Positions 24,537 through 64,000 of a DNA stretch of 64,000 nt are shown one piece after another. Both the position numbers and the translations under genes were made by a program. The DNA lies in the NCBI GenBank assembly GCA_950106755.1, contig OX467086.1:28972001-29036000 (forward strand), read 5' to 3'. Source of the DNA: Climacium dendroides. Lineage: Eukaryota; Streptophyta; Bryopsida; Hypnales; Climaciaceae. Under the pieces are notes generated by a model. It was not told the origin of the DNA. It worked only from the letters and a program-made list of their open reading frames with translations, and made no database searches. The stretch's first letter is position 1. Each line of letters begins with the position of its first letter.

Positions 24537-25912
<1,376 letters not shown>

Positions 25913-29237: not shown

Positions 29238-29680
29238 AATAGAGTTATTCGTAAAGTCCCTTCCAGTTTGGGGGGGATTTTTTCACAAATTTCCTTTGAC
29301 GAAGTGAAAATGCAAAATCAACTGAAGTTTTGAAACTCCCACCAACAGATGGGGAGTTCTGCGATACTCAGGGAATACCCAGTGATATCATCTTCCTCAT
29401 GCCACCCCGTTCAAACTTTGTCCGATGGGAAGTAAAGCGCCTGCCTTTGCATCGCGCTCGCAACTTCGTTGGACGCCAGGGTCAGACGCACATCGATGTC
29501 GTGCACTCATGATTACTAGAGTGGGTTTTGAAACTTGATTTCAATAATTCTTAGGGTCAGACCAAATTGGTTTGTTGTTGTTGGTGTTCATCCAGTTTCG
29601 GTGAATTCTGATGTTATGGCAATCTGTTAGGGTGGAGATTTCGGTGAGTTCTGGTGTTACGGCAATTTGTTAGGGCGGAG

Positions 29681-37080: not shown

Positions 37081-37779
37081 CCCCAGTTTTGGGTACTTTA
37101 CGAATAACTCTAATGTTCTTGTGAGCAACTATCATTCTTGAGATGAGCCATGTAGACAAAACAATTTAAAATAATTTGTCGTTTAGCCTCTTACTTGTTT
37201 TTGAAATGGTCAAGTTATTCTTTTTGATTTTGAAGAGACAAATTGACAAATATTTCATGTTAGTCTTAAAATGACCTAAAATTGGAATATTGGATATGAA
37301 TGAAATCAATTTAGCAAGAGTAAAAAAGACAAATAGGCATGGCGTCATGCAACTTTTAAAACTATATAGCTAAGACTGATTAGTCTCAAAAGTATTTCAT
37401 ATCAAAGTTGAGATTACAAATTTATTCATTGACAAATTTTATTATTAAATTGTCTATTTCTAGAGTATGCAATTGTAAAGGTGGAATTGTCTTAGTGATA
37501 GGCAAATGAGTATAGAGATTCCAATAATTTTATATTTGTAGATTTGTCAATTAAATTGTGTGTCGGATGGAATTGTTGTTAGGGAGTGAGCTTGTTGAGC
37601 TTGTTGATTTGAGAGATTGATAGGCAGATTCATGGTTGTCATAATGGACAGACGTCCAATTCGCCCATCCGTCCGATTCGCCCGTCCATTAGAGGGCTCG
37701 CCCGTCCAATACAATCAACACAAAGTTGACTTTATGAAAATGGAAAAATAGGCCACGTGGATACCACGTGGATTCTGGA

Positions 37780-39480
37780 ACATGCAGGGCGCGGACGGGA
37801 TTTAATAAATATACTAAATTAATATGCTTTTACATATTTCCATTTCATATTCCATATTCTAAGTCACTACAACAGTCCATATTTTTATTTAATGTTAGAT
37901 CATATCACTGTAACACCCAAATAAATTCCATATAATCAATCCATCATTCCATATTTTTGCGAGGTGTTAAATTACCTCATTATAAGTTTGTAACACCCAA
38001 CCACTTCCATGTCCAAATCACTCCACCAATCCACCATTCTATAAATGTTTTGGGTGTTACATTATATTACACTAACACCCAAAGCATTTCCATATTCGAA
38101 AGCACTCCACCATTCATATTTCTTTTAATGTTAGATTATATAACTCCTTCAAAATAATTGGCCACCCTAAAATAAATTGGTATGCTTTTCAAAAGCTTTG
38201 GTCACCCCATCTCCCCTTTTGGACATTGATTTTTAAAGCACACTTCCATTCCAAGTGACTGCCATTATTTTTTGGGCGGAATCATTCTCTTTCCTATTTT
38301 TTTGGCATCATTACCAAAAGTCTTTTATTTGAATTCAATGCCACTTGTGTAGGGTGGAATGACTTTTTTTTCCTATTTTATTTTCCGTGATTAGCAAAAT
38401 TGTTCCATCCCAAGCCGAGGCCATTTCTTTTTCGTTGATCATTCCCATTCCTTTCATTTTTTGCTCCATAGCAAAACTCTTTCATCCCAAGTGAATTCCA
38501 TTTATTTTTTGTGGTATCCCAACTCTATCTGAACTAAATGGTAATTTTTGGGGGGTATTAGTTGAAATCACTTTGACACACTATTTTTTGTGGGCTTATC
38601 TCTCTCACAAAATTGTTCCAACCCAAGCCCAATCCATTTTGTATTTGTTCCATCATTTCCTTTCCTATTTTTTTTCCATTAATGAACAAAGCTCTTCCCA
38701 TCCCAACTCTATGCCATTCTTTTTGGTTCAGATCATTCTCTCTTTTTTTTTTTGCTTCATTCTTAAAACTCTCCCATCCCAACTCATAGTTATTCTTTTC
38801 TTTTCGAACTTTTTTTTTTGTTGAAAGAAATGGACAATTTTCATGTTCTAACATTCCAATTTCTATTTTGTTTTGGTTCATTAATTAGGAAGACTATTTT
38901 ATTCGAACTCATAGTTCTGCTTTATTTGTTCAATCTTTCCCTTCCCTATTTTTTTTTTCTAATTCACTAAAGTTATTCCATCTCAACTCAAAGCCATTAT
39001 TCTTATTTTTTTGTTCCATCATTCTCTTTCCTTTTATTTATTTTTTTCATTACTAAAATTATTCCAATCTACTTCAATGTCATTCTTTTTTTTGTTGGAT
39101 CAATTACTTTCTTTTAGAGGGGGGGCTTCATTAACTTCTAGAACATAGACCTATTTTTTTAATGCATTGTTTTTTCCATTTGTTCAAAAACAAAACAAAA
39201 CAAAACATAGACCTACTGAAAAAATACAATATATGTATTTTTATACCTAACTACTGCATTCACTGTTTTTATAGAGGTTTTACCATCAACTCATAGAATT
39301 TAGAAAAATGCAATGAAAAAGAACAATGATATGGCATATTAATATATTATGACATTTTGAGTAGAGAATACATCCGATTTTATATATATTTGAAATGTTT
39401 CGCAATTGCCAAGTATGTACACATGGTCCTCTACGAGAATGGTTTACCTTCTATGCCTGAACTATATGGTAAACTACAAA
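37780..39480. repeat. Left-end repeat tract of the giant hAT element
   Basis: From about 37840 to 38150, a degenerate repeat of about 90 bases built on TAACACCCAAA and CCATATTC-like motifs. From about 38200 to 39130, degenerate units of 75-90 bases containing TCCCATCCCAACTC, GCCATTCTTT, CATTCTCTTTCC and TTTTTTTTTGCTTCATT. These are the reverse complement of the units at 47.4-48.25 kb and 51.05-52.2 kb. The remaining part to 39480 is AT-rich, without a gene. Confidence 0.7.
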
Positions 39481-40084
39481 AATTAAAAAAAACTAAATAC
39501 TATGTACGATAATAACAATCTGGCATAGTCCAACAGTGGGGGGCCTTCTTCAATGTGTCCAAAACATCTTGCACTTTTGCCCTTTCACTCACATCATCTT
39601 TGATGAGGCTTCTCAATTTGATCCTGAGGTTCACATATTGCTCTGGATTCTTCGTTGTAAAGTATTTGGGGTCCCACTCCTCTTGCCAAATTGCAACTGC
39701 TATCCATCCCGCTGCATATACATCAGCTGCCATGGAGTACAAATGTGTTTTTTGCATGGCCTCAATTGAATTAGCTGAACCCTGCTCTCACTATAACAAA
39801 AGCAGTGTTTTATGACTGCAAAATATGACTACAGTGAGTCGTAAAATAAAAAAATATGACTCACGCAGAAATCACTGTAGATGACTTAGAATATAACTGA
39901 CTCCAGTCGTTTAGAAGCAGTCGCTTCAGACATCAGTCATATTGGCAGTCATACGGGTTGAAGGGTATAAATATCCATTTTTAGCCATAGTATGCCAACT
40001 AGGCGTATATTTTGACTATCCTAGGGGGGGTTTGGCTTTTTCTTGGGTTGCCCGGGCAAATAGAAAAATCCTACGCGGAATACG

Positions 40085-40660
40085 ACTGTGTCGAGTCATA
40101 TTTTTTGATGACGTGGAATATGATTGCGATGAGTCATATCTTTTGATGACGTGGAATATGACTGCAATGAGTCATATTTTTTGATGACATGGAATATGAT
40201 TGTGGTGAGTTATATTTTTTGATGACATGGAATATGACTGTGGTTAGTCATATTTTGCAGTAACATGGAATATGACTGCGGTGAGTCATATTTTGCAATA
40301 ATGTGGAATATGACTGCGGTGAGTCATATTTTGCAGTAACGTGGAATATGACTGTAATGAGTCATATTTTACAGTGATGTGAAATATGACTGCGGTGAGT
40401 CATATTTTACAGTGATGTGAAATATGACTACGGTGAGTCATTTTTTGCAGTGATATGGAATATGATTGCAGTCAGCCATATTTTGTAGTAACATGGAATA
40501 TGACTGCAATGAGTCATATTTTTTGGTTACATGGAATATAACTAGGGTGAGTCATATTTTGCAGTAATGTGAAATATGATTGTGGTGAGTCATATTCTTG
40601 TTAATGTGAAAAATGATTCTCATGAGTCATATTTTTGAATGATGTAGAATACGACTCTCG
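40085..40660. repeat. 38-bp palindromic tandem repeat (CACTA subterminal region)
   Basis: About 15 copies with a 38-base period, each containing ATATGACT, a 5-6 base spacer, GAGTCATAT and then a TTTTGCAGTAACGTGGA-like linker. AGTCATA motifs also occur close to the right end. Multiple short subterminal motifs are where CACTA transposition proteins bind in known elements. Each unit can fold into a hairpin. Confidence 0.85.
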
Positions 40661-41059
40661 TCAGTTATATTACTAACTACAATCACATTTTTAATGCATT
40701 TTAAATGGACATGATATATAACTATCATACATCAAGATGATTTGACAATTGAATAAAAAGTCTCATGCAATTAAAAATGAATACATAATATATGATTTTA
40801 AAGATGTATGAGAGATAATCATATTAAAGAAGGAGAATGCAAGAACAAATACAACTATCTTCATTGACATTTATTAGTCACTAATACAAAATATATATAT
40901 CACAATGAATCATTCACACAATCCAATAAGGCCTACAATCCTTACAATAATGTGAAGATGACTTCATTGGGTTGTAAGTAGCTTCCAATGTCTTTGTTTC
41001 AACTTTTGGTGCTTGCATATATAATTAAAGAAATGAGAGGTTAATTTTTAGTGATTGAA

Positions 41060-41720
41060 CAACAAAGCTCAACCTTCAAAGGCTTATAACAACACAAAAT
41101 ATGTAGCTCAAGTTTAGGATAGGAAGAATAAGATTGATGATGGAGAAAACAAGAAAAAAAAGATAAGTATTAAGAAATAACAAGAAGTAAAAGTTAAGAT
41201 GCAACAAAAAATAAGAAGCAACAACTAAGCAACAACTAAGACACAACAAGAAACAAGAAGCAACAACTAAGACACAACAAGAAACAAGAAATAACAACTA
41301 AGACACAACAAGAAACAAGAAGCAACAACTAAAACGCAAAAAAAACCACAAAACACAAAACAACAACTAAGATACAACATGAAGTAACAATTAAGACACA
41401 AGAGAAAATAAGAAGCAACAACTAAGACACAAGAAGAAACAAAAAGCACCAACTAAGACATAACAAGAAACAACAAGAAATGAGAGTGTAGATGCAACAA
41501 GAAGAAATAAGAAGCAAGAACTACAAAACAAGAACTAAAAAGAAGAAAGAGTTCAAATGCAAGAGAAAAAAAGAATTTAGATGCAACAATAAGAAGCAAG
41601 AAACATGAAGTAAAGAGCAACAAGAAACAAGAGTTGAGATGCAACAAAAAGCAACAACAAATGAGAGCTAAGAGACAATAAAAGGTAAGGAAAAAGAACC
41701 ACAAGAAGTGACGGCTAGGA
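41060..41720. repeat. Purine/CA-rich degenerate repeat tract
   Basis: Degenerate copies of a 25-30 base unit close to AACAAGAAGCAACAACTAAG. One strand is almost free of T. Leu/Cys/Phe-rich frames on the minus strand here are by-products of the repeat. Confidence 0.75.
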
Positions 41721-42028
41721 TTTCAAAACCCTAAAAAGTGGCGGCTAGGGTTCTAAAATCCTAAAAAAATAATGGCTAGGGTCCCAAAACACTAAAAAAG
41801 TGGTGACTAGGATTCAAAATCCGAAAAAGTAGGTGACTAGGATTTCAAAATTTTAAATGATGGCTTATTTATATTTTTTTAGAATTGCCCATATTTTTCT
41901 TGAATTGCCCAAAACAAAAAAAAATTCACTACTATGAAAATATAATTGATAATATGACTCAACGTTCCTAAACATGTTCCCTACGTTCCCTATGAAGTAC
42001 TTTGATATTCCTAATGGCCGTATAATAT
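41721..42028. repeat. Short GGCTAGG-containing repeats within the CACTA element
   Basis: Four or five degenerate copies of GTGGCGGCTAGGGTTC-like sequence separated by CAAAATCCTAAAAAA-like sequence, then AT-rich DNA leading to the right subterminal region. Confidence 0.5.
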
Positions 42029-43620
42029 TCACTTGTAAAGTACAAGGCGTAAAAATGACTGGTAGTCATATTTTGCAGTCATATTTCTCCCTAAAGTGTT
42101 GGCTTTCAAGAATATGACTGCAAATAGTCGCCAGTCATCCTCAGTCATAATTCTGTAGTCATAAAACATTGCCATTGTTGTAGTGTCTCCGTATACATAA
42201 AACAATTCAGGGGCTGCAAACTTTCGCTTTTTCTTTTCCTTCGCTAGGATCTCCATGCTGGGAAAGCCATACCTTGATGGCTCCTTCTCTACAGCTCAGC
42301 TAGAAAGTCCCCAATCACATATCCCTATGTACACCCTGTGCTCTTTCCAATCATCAAAATGGAGCAAAACATTAGATGGAGTTATGTCGTTGTGCATGTA
42401 CTGCACATCGTAGCATTTCCCCACAATGACAAGCAAGGAAAGTGCCAAGTTCACTCGGTTCCTTCGGTAAGTTACAACCCATGCAAACTCTTCTTTTGTT
42501 AGCAGCGTACCTTGTTCACGCTCAATGTCATCCACATCCACTTATTCGTTCACTTTCGAATTGTACTTGGATAAGAAAGAAATTAGAGATCCTCCATTCC
42601 ACCATAGGGTATAGCCTTCCATCGTTTTAGGGTGGATGTACGCAATTCGAATGATGCCAGGATGTATCACTGGACACCCTCCAACCTCATTGATGACACC
42701 TTGGCGCTTCTCCTTTTCATTTGTGATTTTCAAACTCTTCCCAGCAAAAAATATCCAACTAGGAATGCTCTCAAGTTTTGTAAGCATCACCTTCCTCACG
42801 GTCCCATATGAACAAACCGCACTCTGTTCCGGCATGGGGATGACTTTCACTGTACTTTCAAGCCACTTGAATGTTCCACTCACACAATGAGCCGTTATGG
42901 CATCTTCAATTGTCACTTTCCATGGTGCTTGTTTTTTCTTACGCGATGAAGAAAATTGTTGAGCAAAGTTTTGAATGATTTTCAACTTTGCAACCACCTC
43001 TTTATTCTACGTCTCCCAATCGCTACCATCTTCTTTCTTCCCTGTGTGGTAACACCAATTTGACACTATATTGGTTGTGAAGGCAACCACCTGTTTATCC
43101 AGCCAGTCCTGGTGCAACCAATAATCAGAGAAATTGAATTTCTCTGATGATTCAAATTTGGACTCCAGCTCCTTTCGTAGGTCCCTCGTCAGTTTGTGGT
43201 ATCCTTCTTCGTTGTGCGCCACATACTCCCTGGTCAACATAGTTGTACTTCGATGAGTGTAGAATACCACAACTATTGCTCTCCCTTCAACTATGAATTC
43301 GTGTGGAGGCATATGGAAATTGGGTGCTTTCTTGTGCTTCTTTTGGCCCGATGAGGAAGGATTCGATGAACTTGAGGCCACCAATGTATTCGTGGATGGA
43401 ATTACCATCTCACCGACGTCATCTAAATCTATGAACATGGGACGTTTCTCCACTGATCCACTCCCTTCCCCTATTATAATGAAGAATATTTTATATGATG
43501 GGCCTTCGTATCTCTCTCCAAGCACGGAAGTTCAAAATTTAAAAAAAAAAACCGGGTCACATATGCGGGCCAAACCCACCACTCACCAAACTCACTTGCA
43601 TAGGTCGTTAGAACTAGCGT

Positions 43621-44060
43621 GTGAGGCATAGGGTGCGGACTTGGCAAAAAAATGAGGGCAGGGACTTGCTTTATATAGTCCCCCCCTCACGTCCACGCCC
43701 CATCCTTTCGCGTTTTCGCCCCATCTCTTCACGTCCCCGCCCCATCATTTCACGTTTCCGCCCCGTTCCCACACGTCCGCGTCCCAACCGTGATGACGTT
43801 CGCGCCCTGGCACGTGGCGTCCACGCCCCCACTCGATGGCGTCCACGCCTTGACTTCACGTCCACGCCCCCACATCAATGGCATCCATGCCTTGGCTTCA
43901 CGTCCGCGCCCCCGCTCGATGGCGTCCACGCCCTGACTTCACATCCGCGCCCCCGCATCGATGGCGTCCGCACCCTGGCGTCCCCCACCTCCCACTATAT
44001 AAAGCCGTCCCCACCCCATTCGTCCCCGCCCTGTATACTTTCAACCTTCCACCTCTTCAT
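43621..44060. promoter_or_regulatory. Divergent promoter array between the two cargo genes
   Basis: TATATAAA faces left at 43670-43677 (minus strand) and right at 43996-44003 (plus strand). Between them lie about 300 bases of GC-rich degenerate tandem repeats of GCGTCCACGCCC, CTTCACGTCC and CCTCATCGATG-like type. The plus-strand TATA is 137 bases before the RING-gene ATG and the minus-strand TATA is 232 bases before the kinase-gene ATG. The layout suggests one shared enhancer-like array serving two genes. Related arrays occur at 48.69-49.24, 52.60-53.17 and 57.21-57.47 kb. Confidence 0.7.
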
Positions 44061-44132
44061 TGAGTTGGTTGTGAGCGTTGTGCGGGGTCCTCTTGATTGC
44101 CACGTGGGAGGTTTTCGAATTTTTCTGCAAAA

Positions 44133-46944
44133 ATGGCTACGCCACCAAGAATGACCAAGGAGGAACGAGACAAGACCCGACTTTGACCAGGAAATAAACA
44201 TCGTAAGCGACTACATGTTCTACGTAATCCTGCCAAGCTTGCATTCAAGGGGTGGGAGGACGTGCTTGACCCATGACCTTTGATGACTGCGCCAATTACA
44301 TCGAGTGGTGCCACATTGATAGGGTCTTCCCAGAAAAGCGCCACAACTTCCACAAGGCAAATTTGAAACATTACCTTGACAAGGAGTTCACCACCCGATG
44401 CATTGAGGTGGTCCAGGTGTTGTATGATGTCGCGACCGTCCCACGCAATGAAGTGCATCTTTTCATTGCACAAGCGGTCCATGCGGAGGTGAAGTTGAAC
44501 AAGAGAGTGGATTGGTCAACTTTGAAGACAATGGAAAAAAATGTCAATATTCCTACCCCAGAAAATAGATTCATTCCAAGGGGGATAAAAAGATACCCGG
44601 AAGGTGGTCTAGGGAAAACAACTACACAAGTTCAACCACCACCAACATATGAGACTCCGGACTCATCTACGGACAGCGACTTTGATGGATCTCGTGTGGT
44701 AGTTCTAGTCAGCCATAGAACACAACAACAACATGCTAAAAGGAGAAGGGTTGCGCGTGCAACTACTGAGGTTTTACCTGAAAATGTTGTGGAGGAATAG
44801 GTGCCACCTACGGACAAACCAATAGTAGGAGTTGTCCATGTTACAACTGTTCCAAACCGAATCCAGAGTTTGCTGACCGAAGTGAATGACAAGAATGCGG
44901 AATTGCATTCTTTGTATAATTATGTTAACAAATTGAGGGAAGAAATCCAAGAGAAGGACAACATCATCAATTAACAACAACGTGACATGGAGGCACTTCG
45001 ATACGCTCTCCAAGCAGCAACAATAGCTAATGCTGGTCAAGATCCACGAGGCGAAGCACAAGGGCCTTTGAATACTTCTCAAATTCCATTGGAACATGCA
45101 GAAGTTGGTGCAACAATGAATACTCAAGATGATTCATTGTCCTTCGGAGAATTACCAACGAATGAAGTTGCAGCAATGCCTGTTGACCAAAGCACCCAAC
45201 TGACGGACGCGCTTGCAAAAAATTTGAGATTGAAAAATCAATTGCATGCGTTGATGGAGCAGTATTATCAATGGAAGATGGCATGCGTCTTCAGTGTTGA
45301 CAGGACTAGGCAAATGGTGGAAGAATTCAAAAAATTGACCACAATTACGGCGCACACAATCAGGAGAAGGTTTTTGGATTGACATCGTGGGCCCTGGTGG
45401 ATGATCATTTCAATATGGATGAAATGACGACCATCGACATTACTAGTCAACCAACAACCATCGATTGGTCCAAACATGGTTGGGATTTCAAGAATCAAGT
45501 TGGCACTGCCGTCGACCATCAGGGCAATCCATTACTACTGTGGCCAAACCTTTCAACCTTCGTGCATGATGGAACTACATGTCTCATTTGCCTTAATCCA
45601 TTTGGCATGGAAGGTGGAATGCACCTAGGCACATGCGAACATTTGTACCATCCATTCTGCCTAATTAGCTTGATGATTGTTCGCTGACATTGTTCATTGT
45701 GCAAGGCTCCTTTCCATGAGCGCTTGTATGAGTTGTTTGGATTAGTTCCCTACATGCCACCGCATTGAGAATACAATGAAGAAAATGCCCCTGATCATTC
45801 GTCGAAGTGGGGAACAAACTTGGTGTGGAGCTGGAAACTGAACATCCATTCGTTAGGCAAACAACACCTTTGTACTGAATGGGGTTGGGAAACAGATCCA
45901 TCTAAAATTGTCGAGGTGTGCCACCACTTGGTTCCACTAAAGGACAACTTCAGCCAAGGACGATGGAATTTCTTTTTCCAATGCTTCAATGGGCATTGGA
46001 ATGAGGCTGGACAATACTTCCAATTTGGCCCTCATCCTCGTGGATGGTTGTGGGGCGTTGATGGACGTCGCATTACTGATGACCACGGGATGCGTATCAG
46101 GGGAGACATTGACATGCCAGACCCAGGGTTGTCCCCGTCACGTCGCGTCTGTCCATCAGGATGTCCGGACGGACGTCAGGATCCATCCCCGGCGTCCGTC
46201 AGGATGAAATCCCAATGAAAACTGTCCATAGGGGATGAAACTGTCTAGGAGGCCGTCGAAGGAATGCGTAGGCCGTCCAGGGGATGGATGGCCGTCCAGA
46301 GGACGCATGGCCGTCCAAGGACGCATGGCCGTCTAGGATGTCGTCCAAAGGACGGATGGCCATCCAGGATGCCGTCGAGGGGATGCATGGCTGTCCAAGA
46401 TGTCATCGAGGGGACACATGGCCGTCCAGGATGCCGTCGAGGGGACACATGGCCATCTAGGATGCCGTCAAGGGGACGGATGCCCGTCCAGGAGGCCGTC
46501 CACAGCTGGACAGACTTCATCCACGCTGGGACGATCACGTCAGTATTGGGGACGGATCCTGACGGCGTCATGACACGTCAGGACGGACACGTCATGACAT
46601 CCGGACGTGAAAAGCCCACGTCACATCCGGATAGACAACCCTGGCCAGACCCAGCTAAACTTGCACTACTATCAGAGTCAGAGTGGAGAGAAACCTTTCG
46701 AGATGAAGGGATGGACTATTTGATGGAACAGCATAGCCCAGGAACTCTGCAATGTCTTAAGAGCCTCAAACAATCACAAATATTGAGGACTATATTAGAG
46801 GAAGACGAACCAGCAAGGAGAACCCGATCCGCAGTTCGTAGACTTTGTTTGGGCTCAGATGAAGACCTTCCAGTCTGCGCCGGGACACATGACAATGAGG
46901 CTGGACCAAGTGGCAATGCAAGCAGTCCAATGAACATGGACTGA
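44133..46944 (+). pseudogene. RING-finger-containing cargo gene, interrupted by a hAT MITE
   Basis: Reads from ATG 44133 (MATPPRMTKEERDK) through three linked frames, with small frameshifts or missed introns near 44260 and 45370. The N-terminal third (TFDDCANYIEWCHIDRVFPE and what follows) and a Gln/Glu-rich coiled-coil-like middle (LHSLYNYVNKLREEIQEKDN) are unfamiliar. At 45580-45705 is a RING-like set: CLIC, CEHLYHPFC and CSLC, suggesting ubiquitin ligase or zinc-binding activity. After it, Trp-rich sequence (WGTNLVWSWKLNIHSLGKQ, GRWNFFFQCFNGHWNEAG) leads to the MITE at 46124-46643; reading resumes in frame with DPAKLALLSESEW. In-frame stops: TGA 44184, TAG 44798, TAA 44972, TGA 45685 and TGA 45766. 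The frame ends at 46944. Gene identity unknown apart from the RING. Confidence 0.7.
46124..46643 (+). mobile_element. hAT MITE, copy 1 (520 bp) inside the RING gene
   Basis: Both ends begin CAGGGTTGTC, and GCCAGACC flanks it exactly on both sides (46116-46123 and 46644-46651), an 8-bp hAT duplication. The interior is a tandem array of about 30-base units containing GGACGGATGGCCGTCC-like palindromic motifs. There is no transposase. Element plus one TSD is 528 bases, a multiple of three, so the host frame is not shifted. The terminal 10 bases match the giant hAT element, so that transposase could have moved it. Confidence 0.93.
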
Positions 46945-47293
46945 GTACAGTTTAGAGTGTTTTAGCTAGTGAGTTTAGGTTTTCTTAGAAGACTTACTTT
47001 CTTAGCATTGTATAGGCTTATATACTTTCCTACTTTGTATTACACTATGCATATGAAATATATATGATTTTGTTTTGAATGGTTTTGCCCAAAGTGACTT
47101 CGTTCATTTTTTGCACGTACTCATTTGGAACGACTTGTCCACTTCATACATATTAAAATTATTTATATTATGAAATAAAATGTCATTGAATTGGAGTACA
47201 ATTCATTCCCAAACACAAATCAATGAATAAAATTAGAAAAGGACCACAAATGTCATTTACTAGGAAAAAACGCTTTTGAAATGTTGTTAATGG

Positions 47294-47295
<2 letters not shown>
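46945..47295. other. Downstream region of the RING gene
   Basis: AT-rich, probably 3' UTR and terminator region of the RING cargo gene. No further frame was seen. Confidence 0.4.

Positions 47296-47349
<54 letters not shown>
47296..47349. repeat. (AT)n microsatellite
   Basis: Uninterrupted alternating A and T for 54 bases. Confidence 0.95.
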
Positions 47350-47352
<3 letters not shown>

Positions 47353-48326
47353 AAGAAAATAAAGAATAATGGAACCCAAAAAAAATGGGATGAAAATAGT
47401 CAAATAGGTACGTATTTAATTGCAAAATAGGCAAAGGAATGATGGATAAAAGCAAAAAATTGGGAAGGAATGGTATACAAGAAAATGAATGGCATTCGGT
47501 TGGGATAGAATAATCTTGCAAATCAAGCCCCAAAAATAAAGAATGGATTTAGGGAATACAAAAATTAAATGGCCTTAGGTTGAGATGGATCTATTTCGCT
47601 AATCAATGATTTACAAAAAAAAATGAATGATTTACAAAAAAAATTAATGGCATTGAGGTGGGATGAAAGAGTTTTAGAAATGAAGAAAAAACAAAAAAAG
47701 GAAAGAGAATGATGGAACAAAAAAATAATGGCTTTGAGTTGGGGTGGGAGAACTTTGGGAAATAAGCAAAAATAAAATAATGGCTTCGGGAGAACTTCAG
47801 GAAATAAGCAAAAATAAAATAAGGGCTTTGAGTTGGGAATTTTGGAATTGGGATGGGAGAATTTTAAGAAATAAGCAAAAACAAAATAGAGAAGGGAATG
47901 ATTCAACCAAAAAAAAATGAACTATGAATTGGGATGGGAGAGTTTTAGGAACAAAATAGAAAAAAGAATTATTCAACCAAAAGAAAAAAATTAAGTATAA
48001 GTTGCCATGGGAGAGTTTTAGGAATGAAGCATCTATAGAAAAAAGAGAGGGAATGATCCACCCCAAAAAGAATGGCATAGAGTTCGGATGGGAGACCTTT
48101 ACTAATTCATGGAAAAAAAAAGGAAAGGGAATGATGGAACAAATAAAAAATGGCATTGACTTAGGATGGAAGAGTTTAAGGAATGAAGCCTAGAAAATTA
48201 GGAAAGGGAATGATGGAATTAAAAATTCAAGTGGCATATCAAAGGCCTAGAATTTTGGATAACTCCCTACTATTTCTTTCTTTTAAACACAATGCATTTT
48301 TACCCTTTTATCTAGTACACTACATT
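47350..48326. repeat. GAATGATGG-type repeat tract, block 1
   Basis: Degenerate units of about 75-90 bases with GGAAAGGGAATGATGGAAC, AAAAAATGGCATTGAGTTGG and GATGGGAGAGTTTTAGGAAT-like parts. Same family as 51.05-52.2 kb and, inverted, 38.2-39.1 kb. Confidence 0.8.
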
Positions 48327-49240
48327 TCCAAAACATTTTCAAAATATTTTCAAAATATTTCCTCAAAGTGTCCTAACCATTTCCTAAATCAAAGAATTTA
48401 GAGTCTTTGTTTGACACCCTAAAGTATATGTTGGTTCAAAGTAGTTTGAAGTGTTAGAAGAAGTAAGGAGAAACATTTTCCACCACAACGATGGGACATG
48501 CTCTTCCATGAAGTTTCTTTCAAATCTTAGTCCGTGGAGCTTTTAATTTGGCCTCTTGCTTTCATTGACTTGTCGGAATCCAAAACAAGTTGTTGAGGCT
48601 GAAATTAATGGTTCTTCTGCTCCAAGAATAGGACGGATTGAAGGATGTCAAGCCCAAGCGCATTTCAAAGTCATGCCTCCTGTACTGGACGACCACATCC
48701 ACGCCCTGGAGTCCGCGCCCTGACTTGAAGTCCACGCCCTGACTTGAAGTCCTCGCCCTGACTTGAAGTCCTCGCCCTGGAGTCCACGCTCTGACACAAC
48801 CCATTCAGCGAAAACATATGTTCAACTTTGCCATCTTCTCTCCCCACAAATATGAGGAATCTAAAACAAGGTGTGTCAGCATTTAATGTTTTCCTTTTTC
48901 CATGAAAAGGAGGGACACCATCTTCCAAGACCATTAAATAGGAAGAAGGAGGGATCCCATGCCGGAGGTCAACCTACTTTTCATTGCATCCTTAAGTGCG
49001 TACTGCCATTTCTGTAGTGGAGTCACGCCCTGAAGTCCGCGCCTTGGAGTCCGTGCCCTGTTCAGGAGTCCACGCCCTCTGATGACGTCCACGCCCTGGA
49101 GTCTGCGCCCTAACTTCAAGTCCACGCCCTCATTTGAAGTCCACGCCCTCGCTTGAAGTCTATGCCCTGGAGTCCATGCCCTCACTAGAAGTCCACACCC
49201 TAAAGTCTACGCCATATGATGACGTCTGCACCCTGAGTAG
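48327..49240. repeat. Duplicated module, copy 1, ending in a GC-rich array
   Basis: Bases 48361-49065 match 52262-53052 over a long stretch, with most visible differences being C/T or G/A. The right part (48690-49240) is a degenerate array of AAGTCCACGCCCTGACTTG units like those at the other promoter arrays. Unlike copy 2, no gene follows. The frames over the array are repeat by-products. Confidence 0.85.
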
Positions 49241-49311
49241 CGCCAGCGCAGTGAAGTTGCAGCCTCCAACTTCTTGAATTATCGTGGGCAAGGTTTTCAA
49301 GAGTGCAGCGT

Positions 49312-49334
49312 TAGGGTTTAGGGTTTAGGGTTTG
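49312..49334. repeat. Short telomere-type TTTAGGG run
   Basis: Three head-to-tail copies of the plant telomere unit TTTAGGG. Such short runs (telo-box-like) are often seen near plant promoters; it directly follows the GC-rich array of module copy 1. Confidence 0.8.
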
Positions 49335-51050
49335 AGTTAATGGCTTAGGGTAGATAAAATAACAAATCGATGTAGCAATTACCTTTAGAAAAGAACCTTT
49401 CTCATGCATCGAAATCAATTTGACTTGTAAGTTCATGTGAAAATGAATTTCTTGTAGCAATAATTCATAATTGTGGATTGGCATTCACAATCACTCTATT
49501 TCAATTTCACTTGTATGTTTAATTAAGAAAGAGTCCCTTGTGCCAAGTATTAAAAAAAAGAATCTCTTTACGTTTAGAACAAAATATAACTTGTAATTTC
49601 TCGTTTCCCAAATAAATTTCTTGTAGTTAATATGCCTAAAATTGAATCCTTAATTATGAATAATGGATTTGAAAAAATAAAACCTATGGGTTCATTAATA
49701 AAATTCAATCTATCAATTACTTTTGAGAATTGACTCCCTTCCACGTGAATCTAAATAAACAAAACTTTGAAGTTCTTAAAAAAACAACTTGTAGCAAGCA
49801 TGAAGCGTCTACAAAAATGAATCTCTTTACGTGAATCCAAAAGAATGTAAGCTCTAAGTTCTCATTCAAAAACAATCTCTATTAGTGAAATTGTTCAAGA
49901 ATGAATCCCTTTCTAAGAATAACGAATTCAAAAAAATGAAACTTACAGATTACGTTTAAAAAAAAAACCTCGTACGAAGCATTTTCAAATATTAGTCCCT
50001 TCATGTGAATCCAAAAAAATGGAAGATCTAAGTTTCAATTCAAGAACAATCCCTTCTAGCTATTTTTTTAGAAATGGTTCCCTTCCAAGTTATCCAACCC
50101 CAAAAAATGGCATTGACTTCGAATGTAAGTTCTTTGAAATTCAATGCCCCCAAAGAGGGATGGTGTCACCCAAACTTTTGTAAATTTATCATCGGTATGA
50201 TTCAAAACTTTAGTTACAAGTTAAAATGTTGGAGCCTAATGGCCTAAATCCCAAACACAAATACTTGAATTTTCTTTTTTGCTAAAATATAATTCTAGGA
50301 AAGAAAAATGGTGAGAAACAAATCCAAGGAAGAGAACTAAAGGCAAGCAGGGAATCCAAGGGTAGGATCCGATGTAAGGCCCTACAATTCTTTTTTATAA
50401 AAAAATGGGAACTAAACCAATAGAAAAAATTGTTTCACCTATTTTCCTTTTTTTAAAGAGTCTTTTGCCCCATGTACCATAAACAAATGGGTTAAATTTT
50501 TCTACAGAAGATTTAATGCAAAGTATCCATTGTCATTCTTGATTTTCTAATGCATGTGATGGCCTTTAACTTCATTTTTTTTATTATCTATTTTTTTATG
50601 ACATGTGAAGAGAATGGAAAGGTATTGTAAAAAAATTTATCATTGAGTTGGAATGGAGTTGGGATGGAGTGAGTGAGTGAACCTAAATCTAAACCCTGAA
50701 CCCTACCCCTTAAATAGTTAAATTTGGCTTTGAGGTGATTGCTAGACTAACTTCATATTTTTTTGATGTTCTATTTTTTTTATGACATGTGAAGAGAAAA
50801 AAATGGAATTGAGACATTGAGTTAAATGGAAGAGTTTTTCTTGTAAAGAAAAAAAGAAAAAAAAATGCTTTTGCCCCCTAATTAAATGTCCCATATACCA
50901 TACATGGAACGGAAAGGAATGTCAATCCGTTGGAGTGTAAGTGCATTTTAAATGTTGTTAATAAAAGCAAACAAATGTGAAAAAATTATGAAACAAATCT
51001 TGTTTTTCATTACCTATTTTTTTATATGAGAAATGGGAAGTGAATGCAAA
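49335..51050. repeat. AT-rich degenerate repeat spacer
   Basis: To about 50110 there are degenerate units of 60-110 bases containing CTTGTAGCAA, GAATCCCTTT, ACGTGAATCCAAAA and CTAAGTTCTC-like parts. Then AT-rich sequence without a gene, including two TTTTTTATGACATGTGAAGAGA repeats near 50590 and 50775. This is where a third cargo gene might be expected from the module layout, but none can be read. Confidence 0.5.
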
Positions 51051-52230
51051 GACTCCAATTTGGTACCATAAAAAAATTTATGTTTGAGTTGGGATGGAAG
51101 AGTTTGGTATTAGTGAAGCAAAAGAGATAAGAAAGGGAATGATTCAACAAATAAAGAATGGCAATGAATTAAGATGGTAGATTTTTTGGAATGAAGCAAA
51201 GAAAAAAATAGGAAAGGGAATGACAAAACCCAAAAAAATTGGCATGGAGTTGGAATAAAAGAGTTTTAGAAATTAATGAAGAAAAAAAAATAGGAAAACA
51301 AAAAAAATAGGGAAGCAAATGATTCAACATATAAATATTGGCATGGAGTTGGGATACAAGAGTTTTAGGAATTTATGAAGCCCAAAAAAATAGGAAAGGG
51401 AATGGTGGAACCAAAAACAAATGGCATTGACTTGAAATGGAAGTGTTTAAGACTTTAAGGAGTTGATGAAGCCAAAAAAAATGGCATGGAGATGGGATGC
51501 AAGAGTTTTAGGAATGAAGCAGAAACCAAAAAAAAGAGGAAAGAGAATGATGGAACAAAAAAATAATGGCTTTGAGTTGGGGTGGGAGAACTTTAGAAAA
51601 TCAGCAAAAATAAAATAGGAAAGGAGATGATTCAAGCCCAAATAAAAGAACTATAAATTGGGATGGGAGAGTTTTCGGAATGATCCAAAAAATTGGGAAA
51701 GGAATGATAGAACCAAAACAGAACATTTGGCTTTGAGTTGGGATGGAAGAGTTTTAGAAATGAAGCCCAAAAAAAAGGAAAGGGAATGAATTTAGGGAAA
51801 AAAAGGAATTATGAATTGGGATGGGAGAGTTTTAGGAACAAAATAGAAAAAATAATTATTCAACCAAAAGAAAAAAATTAAGTACAAGTTAGAATGGGAG
51901 AGTTTTAGGATTGAAGCAAAAAAAATAGGAGAGAGAATGATCCAACCTAAAATGAATGGCATAGAGTTGGGATGGGAGAGCTTTCCTAATTCATGGAAAA
52001 AATAGGAAAGGGAATGATGGAACAAATAAAAAAATGGCATTGACTTAGGATGGAAAAGTTTTAGGAATATAACCAACAAAAATAGGACAGGGAATGATTC
52101 ACCAAAAAAAAGAATGACAATGAGTTGGAATAAAAGAATTTTAGGATTGGAGTAAAAAAATAGAAAAGTTTTTCTAATTAATGAAGCAAGAAAAATAGGA
52201 AAATAATGATTTTATCAAGTACAATACATT
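51051..52230. repeat. GAATGATGG-type repeat tract, block 2
   Basis: Same degenerate 75-90 base units as at 47.35-48.33 kb, in the same orientation. Confidence 0.8.
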
Positions 52231-53170
52231 TTCAAAATATTGCCTAAACATTTCCAAAATATTTTCTCAAAGTGTCCTAACCATTTCCTAAATCAAAGAA
52301 TTTAGAGTCTTTGTTTGACACCCTAAAGTATATGTTGGTTCAAAGTAGTTTGAAGTGTTAGAAGAAGTAAGGAGAAACATTTTCCACCACAACGATGGGA
52401 CATGCTCTTCCATGAAGTTTCTTTCAAATCTTAGTCCGTGGAGCTTTTAATTTGGCCTCTTGCTTTCATTGACTTGTCGGAATCCAAAACAAGTTGTTGA
52501 GGCTGAAATTAATGGTTCCCCCGCTCCAAGAATAGGACGGATTGAAGGATATCAAGCCCAAGCGCATTTCAAAGTCATGCCTCCTGTACTAGACGACCAC
52601 ATCCACGCCCTGGAGTCCGCGCCCTGACTTCAAGTCCACGCCCTGAAGTCCATGCCTTGACTTGAAATTCACGCCCTGGAGTCCACGCCCTGACTTTAAC
52701 TCCAGGCCATGGAGTCTGTGATTCAACTGCGCTTTCTCAAATTCCTCCGCCTTTGTGAATTGTCCGCCCTAAAGTCCGCACCCTGACACAGCCCATTCAA
52801 CGAAAACATATGTTTAACTTTGCTAACTTCTCTTCCCACAAATATGAGGAATCCAAAACAATGTATGTCAACATTTAATGTTTCCCTTTTTCCATGAAAA
52901 GGAGGGACACCATCTTCCAAGACCATTAAATAGGAAGAAGGAGGGATCCCATGCCGGAGGTCAACCTACTTTTCAATGCATCCCCATGTACGCATCCCCA
53001 TTTCTGTAATGGCGTCGCGCCTTGAAGTTCGCGCCTTGGAGTCTGCGCCCTACCTTCCTGTACCCGCCTTGATGCCAAGAATTCAGGTGTGCGTTGTGAA
53101 CGTCCTTCACAAATTCTCAGATTGTGCGTCCGCACCCTACTGGCACGCACAACGATGAAGTCCACGCCCC
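52231..53170. repeat. Duplicated module, copy 2, with the GC-rich array before the transposase
   Basis: Direct copy of 48327-49065, about 3.9 kb downstream of it. Its right part (about 52600-53170) is a GC-rich array of CCACGCCCTGACTTC-type units that runs up to the TATA box of the transposase gene. Confidence 0.85.
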
Positions 53171-53183
53171 TGCATTCCCTAAG

Positions 53184-53191
53184 TATATATA
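53184..53191 (+). promoter_or_regulatory. TATA box of the hAT transposase gene
   Basis: TATATATA in AAGTATATATAGAAAAGG, directly after the GC-rich array and 261 bases before the transposase ATG. The same array-then-TATA order is seen at both cargo genes. Confidence 0.65.
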
Positions 53192-53451
53192 GAAAAGGAA
53201 GACCCAGCATTCCCCACATTTGTCACCTAGCCTCTATCTCTTCGACTTCAATTCATTTTGAGCTCCTTGTGAGTCTACTTGGGTGGCAGATGGCCCTAGT
53301 TTGCTGCTGAGGTGATGTCAAAATCAGTTCAAGCAGTGGATTAGCGCTAACTATTGTTACTGATACTTTGTTCGGTATATCTTTGGTCTTTTTAACTTCA
53401 ATACAAAGGAGGAGGAAGACATTTGAAATTATTTGTGAACGGCTGAACGCA

Positions 53452-56400
53452 ATGGTAAGTCAAAGGAAGCAGACCAAGGAATGGGAACCGTGGCTAAACT
53501 TTGCGAAGAATGGGACGAAGGTGACTTGTGTTTTTTGTGCTGGGACCTTCAGTTACAAACGTGAGCGTGCTTTTGCACATTTCAGATATGGCTCAAAATC
53601 GGAGAGGTCAATTTGTCAAAGTATGCCTCGTGCAATGCGCCATAGATTTGCCAATTGTGCAGGTTTTGTCCCACTACGAATGGATCCTGGGGACATGTAT
53701 GAAGGAGAACCAATTCAAAGTGCGCCATCTAGAACAACTCCACTTGCAAGTTCAAGTGAAGCCACAGAAAATGAGGTGATGGGTGGGGTTAATAGTGGGA
53801 GAGCAGAAGAAGGGGTAAACGTTTCAGAAGGAAATGAAACCCTACAAACGTCCAATAGCCTTGCTGCATCAAATTCTACGAGATCTGGATCATTACGTCA
53901 GTAGCGTATGGTGGACGCATTCAACATTGCAAAGAGGAAGGAGTTGGATGAGAAGTGGGCAAGTTTTTTCTATGAAGTGAATGTACCATTTAATGTGGCA
54001 AAGCATCCAGCCTTCTTTGAGGCTGTGAGGGCAACTTCATTGGCGAGGTTTGAATATAGTCCACCTTCTTACCATCAGTTCAGAACTAATTTAATTAAAC
54101 CGAGGAGGTTGCAAATCGAGAAGCAGATTGAAGAGAAGGTTGGTTTTGCTGTGAAGCACTACGGGATGACGATATGCATCGATGGTTGGGATGATGTCAA
54201 TTGGAGGCCTCTCATGAATGTGATGATGTCATGCCCCGCAAGTGATGTATTTTGGGGGTCGATTGATACTACCTCACAAAAGAAAACCATGCGCTACATA
54301 GCGAACCAAATGAAAGTGTACATTGAGAAGGTGGGTTCAAAATATGTGACACAAGTGTGCACAGATAATGCAGCAAACATACTTGGGGCATTGCAAGACA
54401 TCACTCGAACATACCCGCACATTTTTGCGCAAGGCTACATGGCACATGCATTGGATCTCATGTTGGAAGATTGGGCCAAAATCCAGGAATTTGCCGATTT
54501 AATTGTCAGGGCAAAAAGATTGTGCCAATACATTCGAAACCATCATGTGACTATGTCGGTTTTTCGTGAGTTGAGTCCGAATCTGCAACTCGTAGTGCCT
54601 ACTGAAACTTGTTGTGCTTGTAATTTCCTCATGTTGCAGCGCCTGGTGAGACTCAGAGCAGTCTTGGAGCGGTTGAATAACCACCCGCGTGTTCTAAATT
54701 ACTTTGATACCTTACGGAACGAATAAAATGGCCCGCAGTCAGCTACCGCTACACGTAATGTCAGAAACACCATTCAAGATGTGGCCTTCTGGCAACGATG
54801 TGTGAATTACGTGTACATGACTGAAGATATATTGAAGGCTTTGCGTGTATTTGATGGACGAGAACCATCCATGGGTCGGGCGTGGCTCGTAATGCACAAT
54901 TTGCAAGGGCATGTGTATTTTTTAAGAGAACCACCTTTCAGCTTACGTGATGACATAGCTATCACTTTGGAAGAATCTTTCAATGAAAGGTGGGAGATGG
55001 CTTTTGAAGATACACACTACGCTGCGGCCCTTTTGAATCCATACCTCTTGGATAATGTGGCGCTCAGGGTGGATGGAATTGCCCTACGTGCATTGTACAA
55101 AGTCATTTGTAAGATGGCAGATTCAGTGGGTGTGGATTTCGATGATGTGCTGGCGGAATTAACACAATTTGAGGAGGGTACTGGACCGTACAATGCAGCT
55201 GAGACACCCAACATCCGTGTGACACAAATGCTTCCCCACCAATGGTGGCATAGGGTTGGAGATCGGTCTCTTTCTAAAATTGTCGTGCGTCTTTTATTCC
55301 TCACATGTTCCGCAAGCTCTTGTGAAAGGAATTGGAGTAACTATTCCTTTGTTCACAATAAGGTCCGAAATCGATTAGCCCCCGAAAAGGCAGAGTCATT
55401 GGTATATATTTATACCAATAGCCGTGTATTTCAGCAGCGACCAGAAGCCGATCCAGTTCGTTGGTATGATGTAAATATATACTCGGAGGATTCCGATCCA
55501 GATGCCCTTGGTCCAATCCCGGTGAATGAACGCAATCGGGAATTCGATGCAATGCAAGCAGAGGAAGAAGAAGAGGTTGATGGAGAAGCCAATCTAAACC
55601 CTCAAGAGTATCTGGCAAACCTAGATCTTTGGAGGCGAGGAGCCGATCACCTCGAGGAAGCGAGGAACTACTATGGAGATGATGATGATGAAGAGGAGGA
55701 ACTCCTATATGGTCGTTGGGGTCCTTGAAGGCCACCCATTCCACCCAATCCACGTCGCCATCCTTCACCTCCACTTCCTCAAAATGAAGGAAATGCTAAA
55801 GTCCAAGCTTTGTCGTCTTCTTTAGAGACCGACAATCCAAATGACAATAACGTCGATGATGGTATTTCCCATAACAACAACGACGATGATGACAACCTCC
55901 CTCCAGGAAATGGCGGTGGAAATGGAAATGGCGGTGGAAATGGAAATGGTGGTGGAAATGGAAATGGTGGTGGAAATGAAGATGGCGACTGAAATAGGGG
56001 GAGGAATGCAAATCCAAATCGTGGAGGATCTTCTCACAATCGAGATGGCAATACAGGGCTTACGGGAGTGAGGCCATCAACTCGTAACATTAGAGTTATT
56101 CAAGGACACCATGATAGAAACGTTAGAAATGCAAGAGTGGCACGCCCTATTGCAAGAAATCAACCGGATGGTAATGTGAGAAGGCCTTTTGATCCAAAGC
56201 GTGTGGACCCTAATGATGTTTTTGCATTTGTGGACCCTGCAGAAGACCTTGCCTGTGTACCTGCTCTAATTGCGGGCCATCCTGCTATTTCAGACCAAGG
56301 TACACAAATGCCACATTCCATAGACCCAGCTTCAATAACAACTTCCAATGCCATCCGAAGACCTTCTCAAGAAGGGTTAGGCTCAGTGGGGAATGTTCAT

Positions 56401-56913
56401 TTGACTCCTCAAAGCGTTTCACGTGGTACTACTGGGGGTAGACCACCTATAGCTCCTCGGCCCCCCGTTCGTCATGAAGTAGGGCAATATCAACAAGGCC
56501 GTGGAGGGCTGGAGGCCGTGGAGGGACTGGAGGCCCACTATAAATTCAAATGCAGAAGACCCCACGCACAACGACATAAGAGGTTGAAGCGCAAACGTAG
56601 TCAAGGTCAAACTACTGTAGAACTTCGAAATGAAAACTCGGAAGTTGAAGGACATTGGACCATAGATAGTGGTGAAGCAGAAGATGAATATGATAGCAAC
56701 GAAGATGCCCATGATGAGGCACCTGAGGATGATGATGTTGTCATTTGAGATGCTAATGCAGTGGATCCAAGTGCCCAAGAAGTTCGTAGGTCAAGTCGTT
56801 TGAATAATTGAGGTTATAGAATTGCATCGATGGTAGATCTCGGGTCTTTAAGAGTTGAAGAGAATTGTAGCAATTGGAAGAAAGATGGACGAGAAGCCAA
56901 AGGATTGTCTTAG
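53452..56913 (+). pseudogene. hAT transposase with long C-terminal extension (six in-frame stops)
   Basis: Single uninterrupted frame of 1,153 codons apart from stops TAG 53902, TAA 54724, TGA 55726, TGA 55990, TGA 56746 and TGA 56809; no frameshift. BED-type zinc finger at about residues 25-55 (CVFC then AHFRYG). DUF659/catalytic part: ICIDGWDDVNWRPLMNVMM with Asp 244, and CTDNAANILGA with Asp 305. The YMAHALDLMLED block has Tyr where many relatives have the Cys of CxxH. The hAT_C dimerisation domain ends with PHQWWHRVG and TCSASSCERNWSNYSFVHNKVRNRL, with catalytic Glu about 625. Beyond residue 760 comes an unusual tail of nearly 400 codons: acidic runs, NGNGGG repeats at 55905-55985 and basic patches. 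The ATG overlaps a GTAAGT donor-like sequence, so a 5' exon border there is possible. Confidence 0.93.
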
Positions 56914-57215
56914 ATAACCTATGAGAAAGTGGGCGTATTTTGGAAGTATAGATTCATTGTATTGTTATTGTACTTTGCAATGCATGAATTTTATAAACAG
57001 TTTTGGTTATCACAAACATTGCAGCCTACTATTATTTTTTTTTGTATTTTTGTATTTGACGTGCATGTTAGAAACATTGGTGAGTGCAATCATGTAAAAT
57101 ATATTGCAGTTACTGGTTCTTTTAAATGCAGTGGGGTCATTACCTTATTCAAAAAAGAATATGTATATATATTACATATATTGTAGAACACATAAATAAA
57201 ATCCACCATTACTTG
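56914..57215. other. Downstream region of the transposase gene
   Basis: About 300 AT-rich bases, probably 3' UTR and polyadenylation region of the transposase transcript. No gene. Confidence 0.4.
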
Positions 57216-57609
57216 ATTACCCATCCGCGCCCTGTCTGTGACGTTGAGGTCCGCGCCCTCACACTCACGGTGAAGTCCGCGCCCTAACTATACGAGTCCG
57301 CGCCCTGACGCTCACGTTGAAGTCCGTGCCCTGACACTCACGCTGAAGTTCGTGCCCTGACGCTCACGCTGAAGTCCGCGCCCTGACTTCACAAGTCCAC
57401 GCCCTGACGGTGGCACGATGACGTCTACGCCCACACATGACGTCCACGCCCTGGATTCGCTGTTTGAGGTGACATGTCATTCAAAAAAATTCCACAACTT
57501 TGAAAAATTAAAGCCGTCCAGTTGGTCCGGCCCATCCGTCCGTCTAGTCCGGTTTGCCCGTCCGTCCGGGACATCCGACGACCCTAACTCGCCCGTTATG
57601 ACAACCCTG
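57216..57609. repeat. GC-rich array and right subterminal region of the giant hAT element
   Basis: About eight units of GAAGTCCGCGCCCTGACGCTCACGCT type to 57470, then subterminal sequence dense in CCGTCC/GTCCGG motifs up to the inverted end. Similar GTCCG motifs stand at the left end (37650-37720) and in the two hAT MITEs. Likely transposase-binding region, by analogy with other hAT elements. Confidence 0.75.
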
Positions 57610-57617
57610 GGCAGATT

Positions 57618-62616: not shown

Positions 62617-63067
62617 TACCTTCATGGCTTGTAGCTGACAATGTTTTCAATTGTCTACTTTTTGCATGTTCATGAGCAACCATGCGAGTAGGAACCATAG
62701 GTTTGCAACCTCCGTTGATTGGAAATCACAAAATTGCAGAGATGCTAGTCCTAGTAGAAGGTGTAACTACTTCTAAACATGCTTGAAAGGAGCGGGACCT
62801 AAATTGGTAGCATTCAAAAATAATGGCACTAATTCAAGTGGAAAAGGAGCTTGCATGGGAAGAATCAAATATGCATGTTGTTTGAGACCTCATGAATCTA
62901 AACTCAACAAAGTAGAGTCATATCAACAATGCCATGATGAAAGTTGGAATTTTTCCTTGTCTCCGTACTGGAGCTGCATATAATAGCAAGTGGAACTAAC
63001 TTGTACTAGAGTATAAACGAATTTTGGATTACTACACAAAGAACAAAACCAACTCATCTGATTTTTG
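62617..63067. other. Intergenic DNA
   Basis: No supported gene. The frame at 62783-62983 shows no recognisable motif. Confidence 0.4.
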
Positions 63068-63712
63068 CAGGGTTGTCTATCCGGACGTGACGTGGGCTTT
63101 TCACGTCTGGATGTCATGACGCGTCCGTCCTGACGTGTCATGACGCCGTCAGGATCCGTCCCCAATACTGACGTGACTGTCCCAGCGTGGATGAAGTCTG
63201 TCCAACTGTGGACGGCCTCCTGGACGGCCATCCGTCCCCTCGACGGCCATCCGTCTTCTCGACAACATCCTGGACGGCCATCCGTCCCCTCGACGGCCTC
63301 CTGGACGGCCATCCGTCCCCTCGACGGCCTCCTGGACGGGCATCCGTCCCCTTGACGGCATCCTGGACAGCCATGTGTCCCCTCGACGGCATCCTGGACG
63401 GCCATGTGTCCCCTCGATGACATCTTGGACGGCCATGCATCCCCTCAACGGCATCCTGGACGGCCATCCGTCCTTTGGACCCGTCCCTTGGACGACATCC
63501 TAGACAGCCATGCGTCCTTGGACGGCCATGCGTCCTCTGGACGGCCATCCATCCCCTGGACGGCCTACGCATTCCTTCGACGGCCTCCTAGACAGTTTCA
63601 TCCCCTATGGACAGTTTTCATTGGGATTTCATCCTGACGGACGCCGGGGATGGATCCTGACGTCCGTCCGGACATCCTGACGGATGGACGCGACGTGACG
63701 GGGACAACCCTG
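63068..63712 (-). mobile_element. hAT MITE, copy 2 (645 bp)
   Basis: Ends begin CAGGGTTGTC on both sides and GATTTTTG flanks it exactly (63060-63067 and 63713-63720). It is the same element as 46124-46643 in the opposite orientation, but longer because it has more copies of the internal CTGGACGGCCATCCGTCC-type unit. No transposase. Confidence 0.95.
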
Positions 63713-64000
63713 GATTTTTGGAGTCTGACTACCACTTAGCGAAAGGTTGAGGGTCTTCTATGGACTTTTCCCACTACAAGAGAAAGGGGGTGTTTTCAAT
63801 GAGTTTTCAAATATAGTCCTAGACATAAGATTATAAGTAGTGCCTTTCGTCATGTCACTCAAACTCAAAAGTTGAGCTATAACCCTTGGAGAAAAGCATG
63901 CCTTTTGTACAACGGCAAGGTTGCCATTTGGACTAAAGATGGAGACGTCCACTAGAGACTGAGCCTTCGAACTTCCAACTGTAGCTAGCTATGATTGTAC

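Follow-up and report, generated by a model that had tools for sequence, protein, structure and literature searches.

Can a plant hAT transposon of some 20 kb be one mobile element, and can genes other than a transposase belong to it? The question is raised by a stretch of 64,000 nucleotides from Climacium dendroides (Bryopsida; assembly GCA_950106755.1, contig OX467086.1, positions 28,972,001 to 29,036,000 of the forward strand), hereafter the window. Here the original prediction, made from the letters alone, had placed a single giant hAT element carrying its own transposase and a collected kinase-like and RING-like gene. hAT elements make 8-bp target site duplications (TSDs), and autonomous plant hATs are usually about 3-5 kb long; to our knowledge, hAT elements, which move by cut and paste, are taken to have a single gene. 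Our data show that the window holds one damaged copy, here called E0, of a large multi-copy plant hAT family (family A), and that this is a real, large, multi-gene family, a variant of hAT elements with kinase and RING as core genes.

The features that define the borders of E0 are the following.

37631-57609, plus strand: whole inserted hAT element, copy E0, 19,979 bp (from borders, copies elsewhere and a paralogous empty site)
37623-37630, no strand: left 8-bp TSD GGCAGATT (sequence read)
57610-57617, no strand: right 8-bp TSD GGCAGATT (sequence read)
37631-37647, plus strand: left terminal inverted repeat (TIR) CATGGTTGTCATAATGG (sequence read)
57593-57609, minus strand: right TIR CAGGGTTGTCATAACGG, as reverse complement (sequence read)

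Both the exact 8-bp duplication and the inverted ends that had been predicted were found at these positions, with the two TIRs identical at 15 of 17 bases. A scan of the whole window for 8-bp duplications adjoining ends that agree at 13 or more of 17 bases recovered 11 pairs. Four of these, including E0, reached 15 of 17, the other three lying within two inverted copies of one miniature element. The sequence CANGGTTGTCATAA occurs at zero mismatch in the window just at the two E0 ends; at up to three mismatches it was found 22 times there, with 25.6 occurrences expected. A 300-base join of the flanks, retaining one GGCAGATT, aligns to C3:1673806-1673910 across the junction at 85 of 108 bases (79%), ungapped at the junction. 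This locus is a paralogous empty site for E0, and because the joined flanks match it across the junction, the inserted unit is 37631-57609. The 8-bp TSD, short TIRs, a transposase with a dimerisation domain and a single empty target together place the element in the hAT superfamily.

Searches of the genome (412.6 Mb in 123 contigs) with the ends of E0 returned at least 57 matches to its first 278 bases (best 40 of 152 candidates scored) and at least 40 to its last 178 bases (best 40 of 168 candidates scored), the window included in each case. Fourteen other loci with both end matches in the correct order were taken whole, and the remaining end matches were not. Seven of the 14 have exact 8-bp TSDs, each different from the others and from that of the window, and in a further three the TSD agrees at 7 of 8 bases.

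Exact TSD: E2, 29,157 bp; E3, 16,728 bp; E4, 13,444 bp; E10, 14,857 bp; E11, 25,060 bp; E13, 15,031 bp; E14, 13,500 bp
TSD 7 of 8: E1, 3,279 bp; E5, 18,470 bp; E6, 25,816 bp

Stretches common to these copies and E0 are mostly 91-97% identical, with lower values in the repeat arrays. Copies E1 and E12 are deletion derivatives of 3.3-3.4 kb without genes. The longest fetched copy, E2 (29.2 kb), consists of the family A core plus another large hAT, element B, inserted in the transposase gene. All 14 share the borders of E0 and none ends well inside them, among copies picked for having both ends matched, so that copies with other ends were not selectable (for E8 no 5' end could be located, and its border was placed by hand). 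Each of the 12 non-deleted copies has the kinase, RING and transposase genes, with part of RING in E8 and E11 and part of the kinase in E9. Together, the empty site and the other copies with the same borders uphold the central claim of the original prediction, a single large hAT element that includes kinase-like and RING-like genes.

What did not stand is 20 kb as the natural size of the element. The uninterrupted core is about 13.4 kb, as shown by E4 and E14, and E0 is this core plus a CACTA insert, a hAT miniature and an internal duplication.

39789-42185, no strand: nested CACTA-type element, 2,397 bp, with TSD TCT at 39786-39788 and 42186-42188
46124-46643, no strand: nested hAT miniature element, 520 bp, with TSD GCCAGACC at 46116-46123 and 46644-46651
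47452-49237, plus strand: internal repeat region, first copy, an AT-rich array followed by a GC-rich array
51121-53051, plus strand: second copy of the internal repeat region, lying upstream of the transposase gene

The two nested elements have TIRs and TSDs as expected for their types (TCT; GCCAGACC) and are later, separate insertions, outside family A. None of the 12 copies with the end of the kinase gene is interrupted at the CACTA site, and none of the 12 comparable copies at the miniature site. The miniature matches element B at both ends, with 89-90% identity. Apart from these insertions, E0 differs in length from the core mainly by the direct duplication (47452-49237 and 51121-53051). 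Within the CACTA-type element there is also a 38-bp tandem array at 40073-40656, whose motif resembles, by eye, the element's own ends (TATGACTGC). A second copy of the family-B-derived miniature, inverted, lies outside E0 at 63068-63712, with the exact TSD GATTTTTG at 63060-63067 and 63713-63720.

Three genes are recognizable within E0.

39503-39788, minus strand: kinase-like gene, C-terminal part (tblastn match 39503-39781; CACTA insertion junction)
42189-43474, minus strand: kinase-like gene, main part, with G-loop, Lys, HND, DWG and APE motifs and three in-frame stops
44133-46123, plus strand: RING-like gene, portion ahead of the miniature insert, in E0 frame-shifted and interrupted by stops
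46644-46944, plus strand: RING-like gene, C-terminal part, 3' of the miniature insert
53452-56811, plus strand: hAT transposase gene, a 1,120-codon frame with DUF659, Dimer_Tnp_hAT and an acidic C-terminal tail

The predicted transposase is indeed inside the borders, with DUF659 (3e-33) and Dimer_Tnp_hAT (3e-7) detected on the window frames and the same domains in the transposase of copy E9 (P0044; 4.5e-36 and 8e-9). The E0 frame has five in-frame stops ahead of its end, and some transposase frames in the genome have none. Since all three frames are broken, the kinase split by the CACTA element and by stops, the RING gene split and frame-shifted, and the transposase interrupted by stops, E0 does not look autonomous now.

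The kinase-like gene, which is stop-free over 526 residues in copy E7, encodes a predicted protein kinase fold. The G-loop, Lys, Glu, HxD, DxG and APE residues are invariant in P0002 and 13 of 18 kinase homologues, and Lys, Glu, HND, Asn and DWG are also invariant across 17 of the 18; two signatures are altered, HRD to HND and DFG to DWG. Pfam Pkinase was detected on P0002 (1.4e-8), and a structure model of the environmental homologue P0028 (mean predicted local distance difference test score, pLDDT, 79) matched kinases in Foldseek at probability 1.00, while sequence comparison of the kinase with the PDB gave nothing better than an E value of 0.11. The RING-like gene, stop-free over 765 residues in copy E3, probably encodes a RING-H2 protein and putative ubiquitin ligase. 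In its C3H2C3 pattern, seven of eight zinc ligands are invariant in P0001 and 17 of 23 homologues, with the first His varying. A low-confidence model of the environmental homologue P0003 (mean pLDDT 59) matched the RING-H2 domains of Arkadia and RNF165 at probability 0.99 but with E values of 0.37-0.65, and Pfam RING on P0001 fell under the curated cut-off.

Element B extends these observations to a second, far-diverged family. It is 15,751 bp long, has the exact TSD GTGACGGG and contains a transposase, which adjoins its left end, a kinase (minus strand) and a RING gene (plus strand); its ends share CAGGGTTGTC and are alike at 10 of 16 bases. Protein identity between B and A is 41-55% for the transposase, 30-33% for the kinase and 26-31% for RING. 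Family B is known from this one whole copy, and RING-B has at least 74 matches in the genome (best 73 of 1,236 candidates scored). With kinase and RING genes in the 12 non-deleted A copies and in element B, these are not transposase-only elements. Nor are they Pack-type elements with varying host gene fragments, as the same kinase/RING pair is found in both families. The two genes are thus standard genes of family A, common also to family B, and not, as had been proposed, cargo collected by one element. Further kinase matches at 20-29% identity, spanning 300-568 residues and many of them stop-free or nearly so, were noted in the same genome (for example, C2:51253435, C35:12556820 and C41:26764136; several are stop-free at 500-568 residues), and these are possibly more families of the three-gene kind.

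The pairing holds across the genome. The counts here and below are among the matches listed, which are matches and not genes; those from one duplicated C39 block are not independent, and kinase matches were restricted to 82 of 86 for A (four second pieces left out) and to the best-placed 73 of 130 for B (the weak matches dropped, together with some second pieces). A kinase match lies within 12 kb of 50 of the 60 RING-A matches, divergently oriented in 46, and of 68 of the 74 RING-B matches, all 68 divergent with gaps of 3.1-7.1 kb. Within 25 kb of the 67 transposase-A matches, a RING match is present for 43, a kinase match for 45 and both for 36. The chance expectation for each neighbor count is about 0.5-1%. 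Kinase, RING and transposase therefore travel together in A, and kinase and RING in B. Stop-free matches number four of 60 for RING-A, 20 of 74 for RING-B (some partial) and five, near full length, for kinase-A. The idea that kinase and RING are passengers of E0 alone was ruled out by the other copies and by the genome-wide pairing in A and B. On C39, a diverged A-type subfamily (71-75% for RING and 80% for the kinase) recurs over positions 4399423-4583570 in blocks spaced by about 44 kb, which looks like segmental duplication.

Short motif arrays are a further trait common to the two families.

43692-43952, no strand: GC-rich array of the motif TCCRCGCCC, flanked by the divergently oriented kinase-like and RING-like genes and interpreted as their common promoter region
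57224-57451, no strand: 3' subterminal GC-rich array, same motif as before the genes

Counted on either strand in four of 13 gene-bearing A copies, TCCRCGCCC falls in the ends and pre-gene stretches in 22 of 27 (E4), 23 of 26 (E14), 17 of 18 (E13) and 22 of 29 (E10) hits, in zones that make up 13-16% of element length; the A 5' end itself has just one to three hits. In element B, 44 of 45 GGACGG hits are in the ends and pre-gene zones, 17% of the element. Both A and B thus have a family-specific array at the element ends and before genes. The predicted arrangement of one promoter array per gene needs revision, as a single array lies between kinase and RING and a separate one precedes the transposase. 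By eye, the interval from array to gene contains TATA-like sites for both RING and the transposase, in the window as well as in E4.

Substitution patterns bear on whether the pair has been maintained. Three stop-free RING copies have ratios of non-synonymous to synonymous substitution rates (dN/dS) of 0.40-0.51 among themselves, and RING compared with a 74%-identical subfamily (which has six stops) gives 0.40-0.44. Changes present in at least two copies were compared with private changes, either excluding C>T and G>A or keeping all classes. With these excluded, non-synonymous/synonymous counts were 7/9 for shared versus 59/22 for private changes in RING (p 0.038) and 4/6 versus 40/10 in the kinase (p 0.017), and in the pooled data the non-synonymous share was lower in shared than in private changes (p 0.0008). 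This is moderate evidence of old selection overlaid by neutral, deamination-rich decay.

Considering these results together, we find it likely that E0 is a decayed copy of a giant multi-gene hAT in which the kinase and the ubiquitin ligase are accessory proteins. The element encodes a DUF659-type hAT transposase together with a divergent protein kinase/RING-H2 pair. E0 entered its 8-bp target in a single event, as one unit, and was disabled by the CACTA element in the kinase gene, the family-B-derived miniature in the RING gene and stop mutations. A strong inference is that the ancestor shared by A and B already had the pair, which was then retained because it helps the element.

In other hATs, the transposase acts through subterminal arrays. 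By analogy, the transposase here would most likely act on the ends via such arrays, and the same sites before the genes would make expression depend on an element protein being present. With moderate confidence, we favor a model in which gene expression is coupled to excision through binding of the arrays by a single element-encoded protein, most probably the transposase. More tentatively, the kinase and the ubiquitin ligase could act jointly, phosphorylating and then ubiquitylating host silencing factors or the transposase, by which silencing would be relieved or dosage set. It is a possibility of the same tentative order that the whole multi-gene hAT lineage evolved its own phosphorylation/ubiquitylation pair, controlled via the end-marking arrays and acting on silencing or on the transposase. 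In that case the pair would date back to the A/B split, and the 20-29% kinase matches would be further members.

Several observations weigh against an accessory role for the pair, or against the evidence assembled for it. Four of the 14 fetched copies (E7, E8, E9 and E12) are without a matching TSD, and the transposase is on opposite sides of the kinase/RING pair in A and B. Partners are missing for some of the matches: 14 of 60 RING-A without a divergent kinase within 12 kb, six of 74 RING-B without a kinase and 15 of 67 transposase-A with neither partner, these being partly misses and partly partial copies. A wider RING alignment (21 of 23 homologues, truncated members included) leaves just four invariant ligands, and a Pfam search of transposase P0044 found no BED finger, though the frame does show a CxxC stretch. 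The zones for the motif counts were drawn after the arrays had been seen, with B following a similar rule. Median dN/dS within 13 A copies (78 pairs) is 0.62 for RING, 0.47 for the kinase and 0.81 for the transposase, values that mostly reflect decay after insertion. With C>T and G>A excluded, the transposase counts of 9/7 shared and 99/35 private do not differ significantly (p 0.15), and when all mutation classes are kept none of the three genes reaches significance (p 0.14, 0.44 and 0.85).

Alternatively, two host genes may have been captured once by a hAT and carried without a role, in the style of Pack-TIR elements. Stops in most copies, the fairly high within-family dN/dS (0.47-0.81) and the abundance of kinases and RING proteins in hosts would fit such passive carriage. 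We nevertheless consider it unlikely, since the same pair is retained in two families at just 26-55% protein identity, environmental homologues with identities as low as about 30% still have the catalytic and zinc-binding residues, arrays precede the genes in both families, and the stop-free matches counted above exist. A still less probable explanation is that the ends are moved by an outside transposase and that the hAT transposase found inside belongs to a nested element. The gene-less copies E1 and E12 do need transposase in trans, but the internal position of the transposase does not vary among the 12 non-deleted copies, E0 contains no extra zero-mismatch end of the family type, the transposase adjoins the left end in B, and some transposase frames are stop-free. 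Finally, although the interval does hold nested elements and AT-rich and GC-rich arrays, a chance border, with TSD and ends from different elements around a pile-up of unrelated insertions, is refuted by the C3 empty site that spans exactly these borders and by copies elsewhere that have both of these borders but a TSD of their own, as well as by the single zero-mismatch end pair in the window, and retains a negligible probability.

A giant multi-gene hAT with accessory proteins can be compared with several known systems. The present system shares with DUF659-type plant hATs (Ac/Tam3/Tip100-like) the 8-bp TSD, short CAGGG-type TIRs, DUF659 and the C-terminal dimerisation domain, but has about 13-16 kb and three genes where ordinary plant hATs have 3-5 kb and one. 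VANDAL and MuDR are Mutator-like elements, a different superfamily from hAT. VANDAL with its VANC protein and MuDR are likewise DNA transposons that carry an accessory gene. The noncoding regions bound by VANC form rapidly diverging tandem repeats, resembling the family-specific arrays seen here, and VANC induces loss of silent marks (PMC10398659). VANC is the nearest functional parallel for the putative accessory role of the kinase and RING proteins, although it is a sequence-specific binding protein and the proteins here are a kinase and a RING protein. ToxhAT (ToxTA) of fungi, a 14-kb cargo-bearing class II element formerly called hAT, was found to have a 2-bp TA TSD and has been proposed to be Tc1/Mariner-like (PMC12506042). 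Pack-MULEs, which contain host gene fragments and depend on a transposase in trans (PMC6431247), and gene-capturing Helitrons are also plant DNA transposons with gene pieces, some of them large. These hold fragments of host genes, whereas in the elements studied here the same full-length genes recur.

Relatives in other organisms are found mostly in environmental sequences. Word-based searches, with about 8,000 candidates scored for each protein, so that related plants may hold more, returned 23 RING, 18 kinase and 48 transposase homologues, nearly all environmental, without organism name and mostly on short contigs. Twenty-six of the 48 transposase homologues, all environmental, are 913-1,206 residues long. 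The organism-named transposase relatives among the candidates scored are just Silene latifolia (27%) and Chara braunii (25%), and the RING and kinase lists contain no plant name among the candidates scored. One 72%-identical kinase (P0027) is filed at NCBI as a protein kinase of a Bacilli bacterium metagenome-assembled genome, a record that is probably plant transposon contamination. No relative was confirmed in IMG/VR (kinase and RING profiles) or GTDB contigs (kinase profile), searches from which records near the window's genome were possibly excluded. Our searches of the open-licence literature returned no hAT with kinase and RING, which is no proof of absence.

Elsewhere in the window, positions 24459-25055 hold a plant-like 14-3-3 gene with the 14-3-3-like protein GF14-C as its best PDB match. 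An open reading frame at 29648-30472 resembles, by eye, a Harbinger-type DDE nuclease.

A many-copy plant lineage whose kinase and RING genes persist across deep divergence would be well suited to studying how host defence is controlled by DNA transposons. It would also inform how accessory genes become fixed in transposons and the upper size of mobile hATs. Stop-free copies and a paired array system make the question of an accessory role directly testable.

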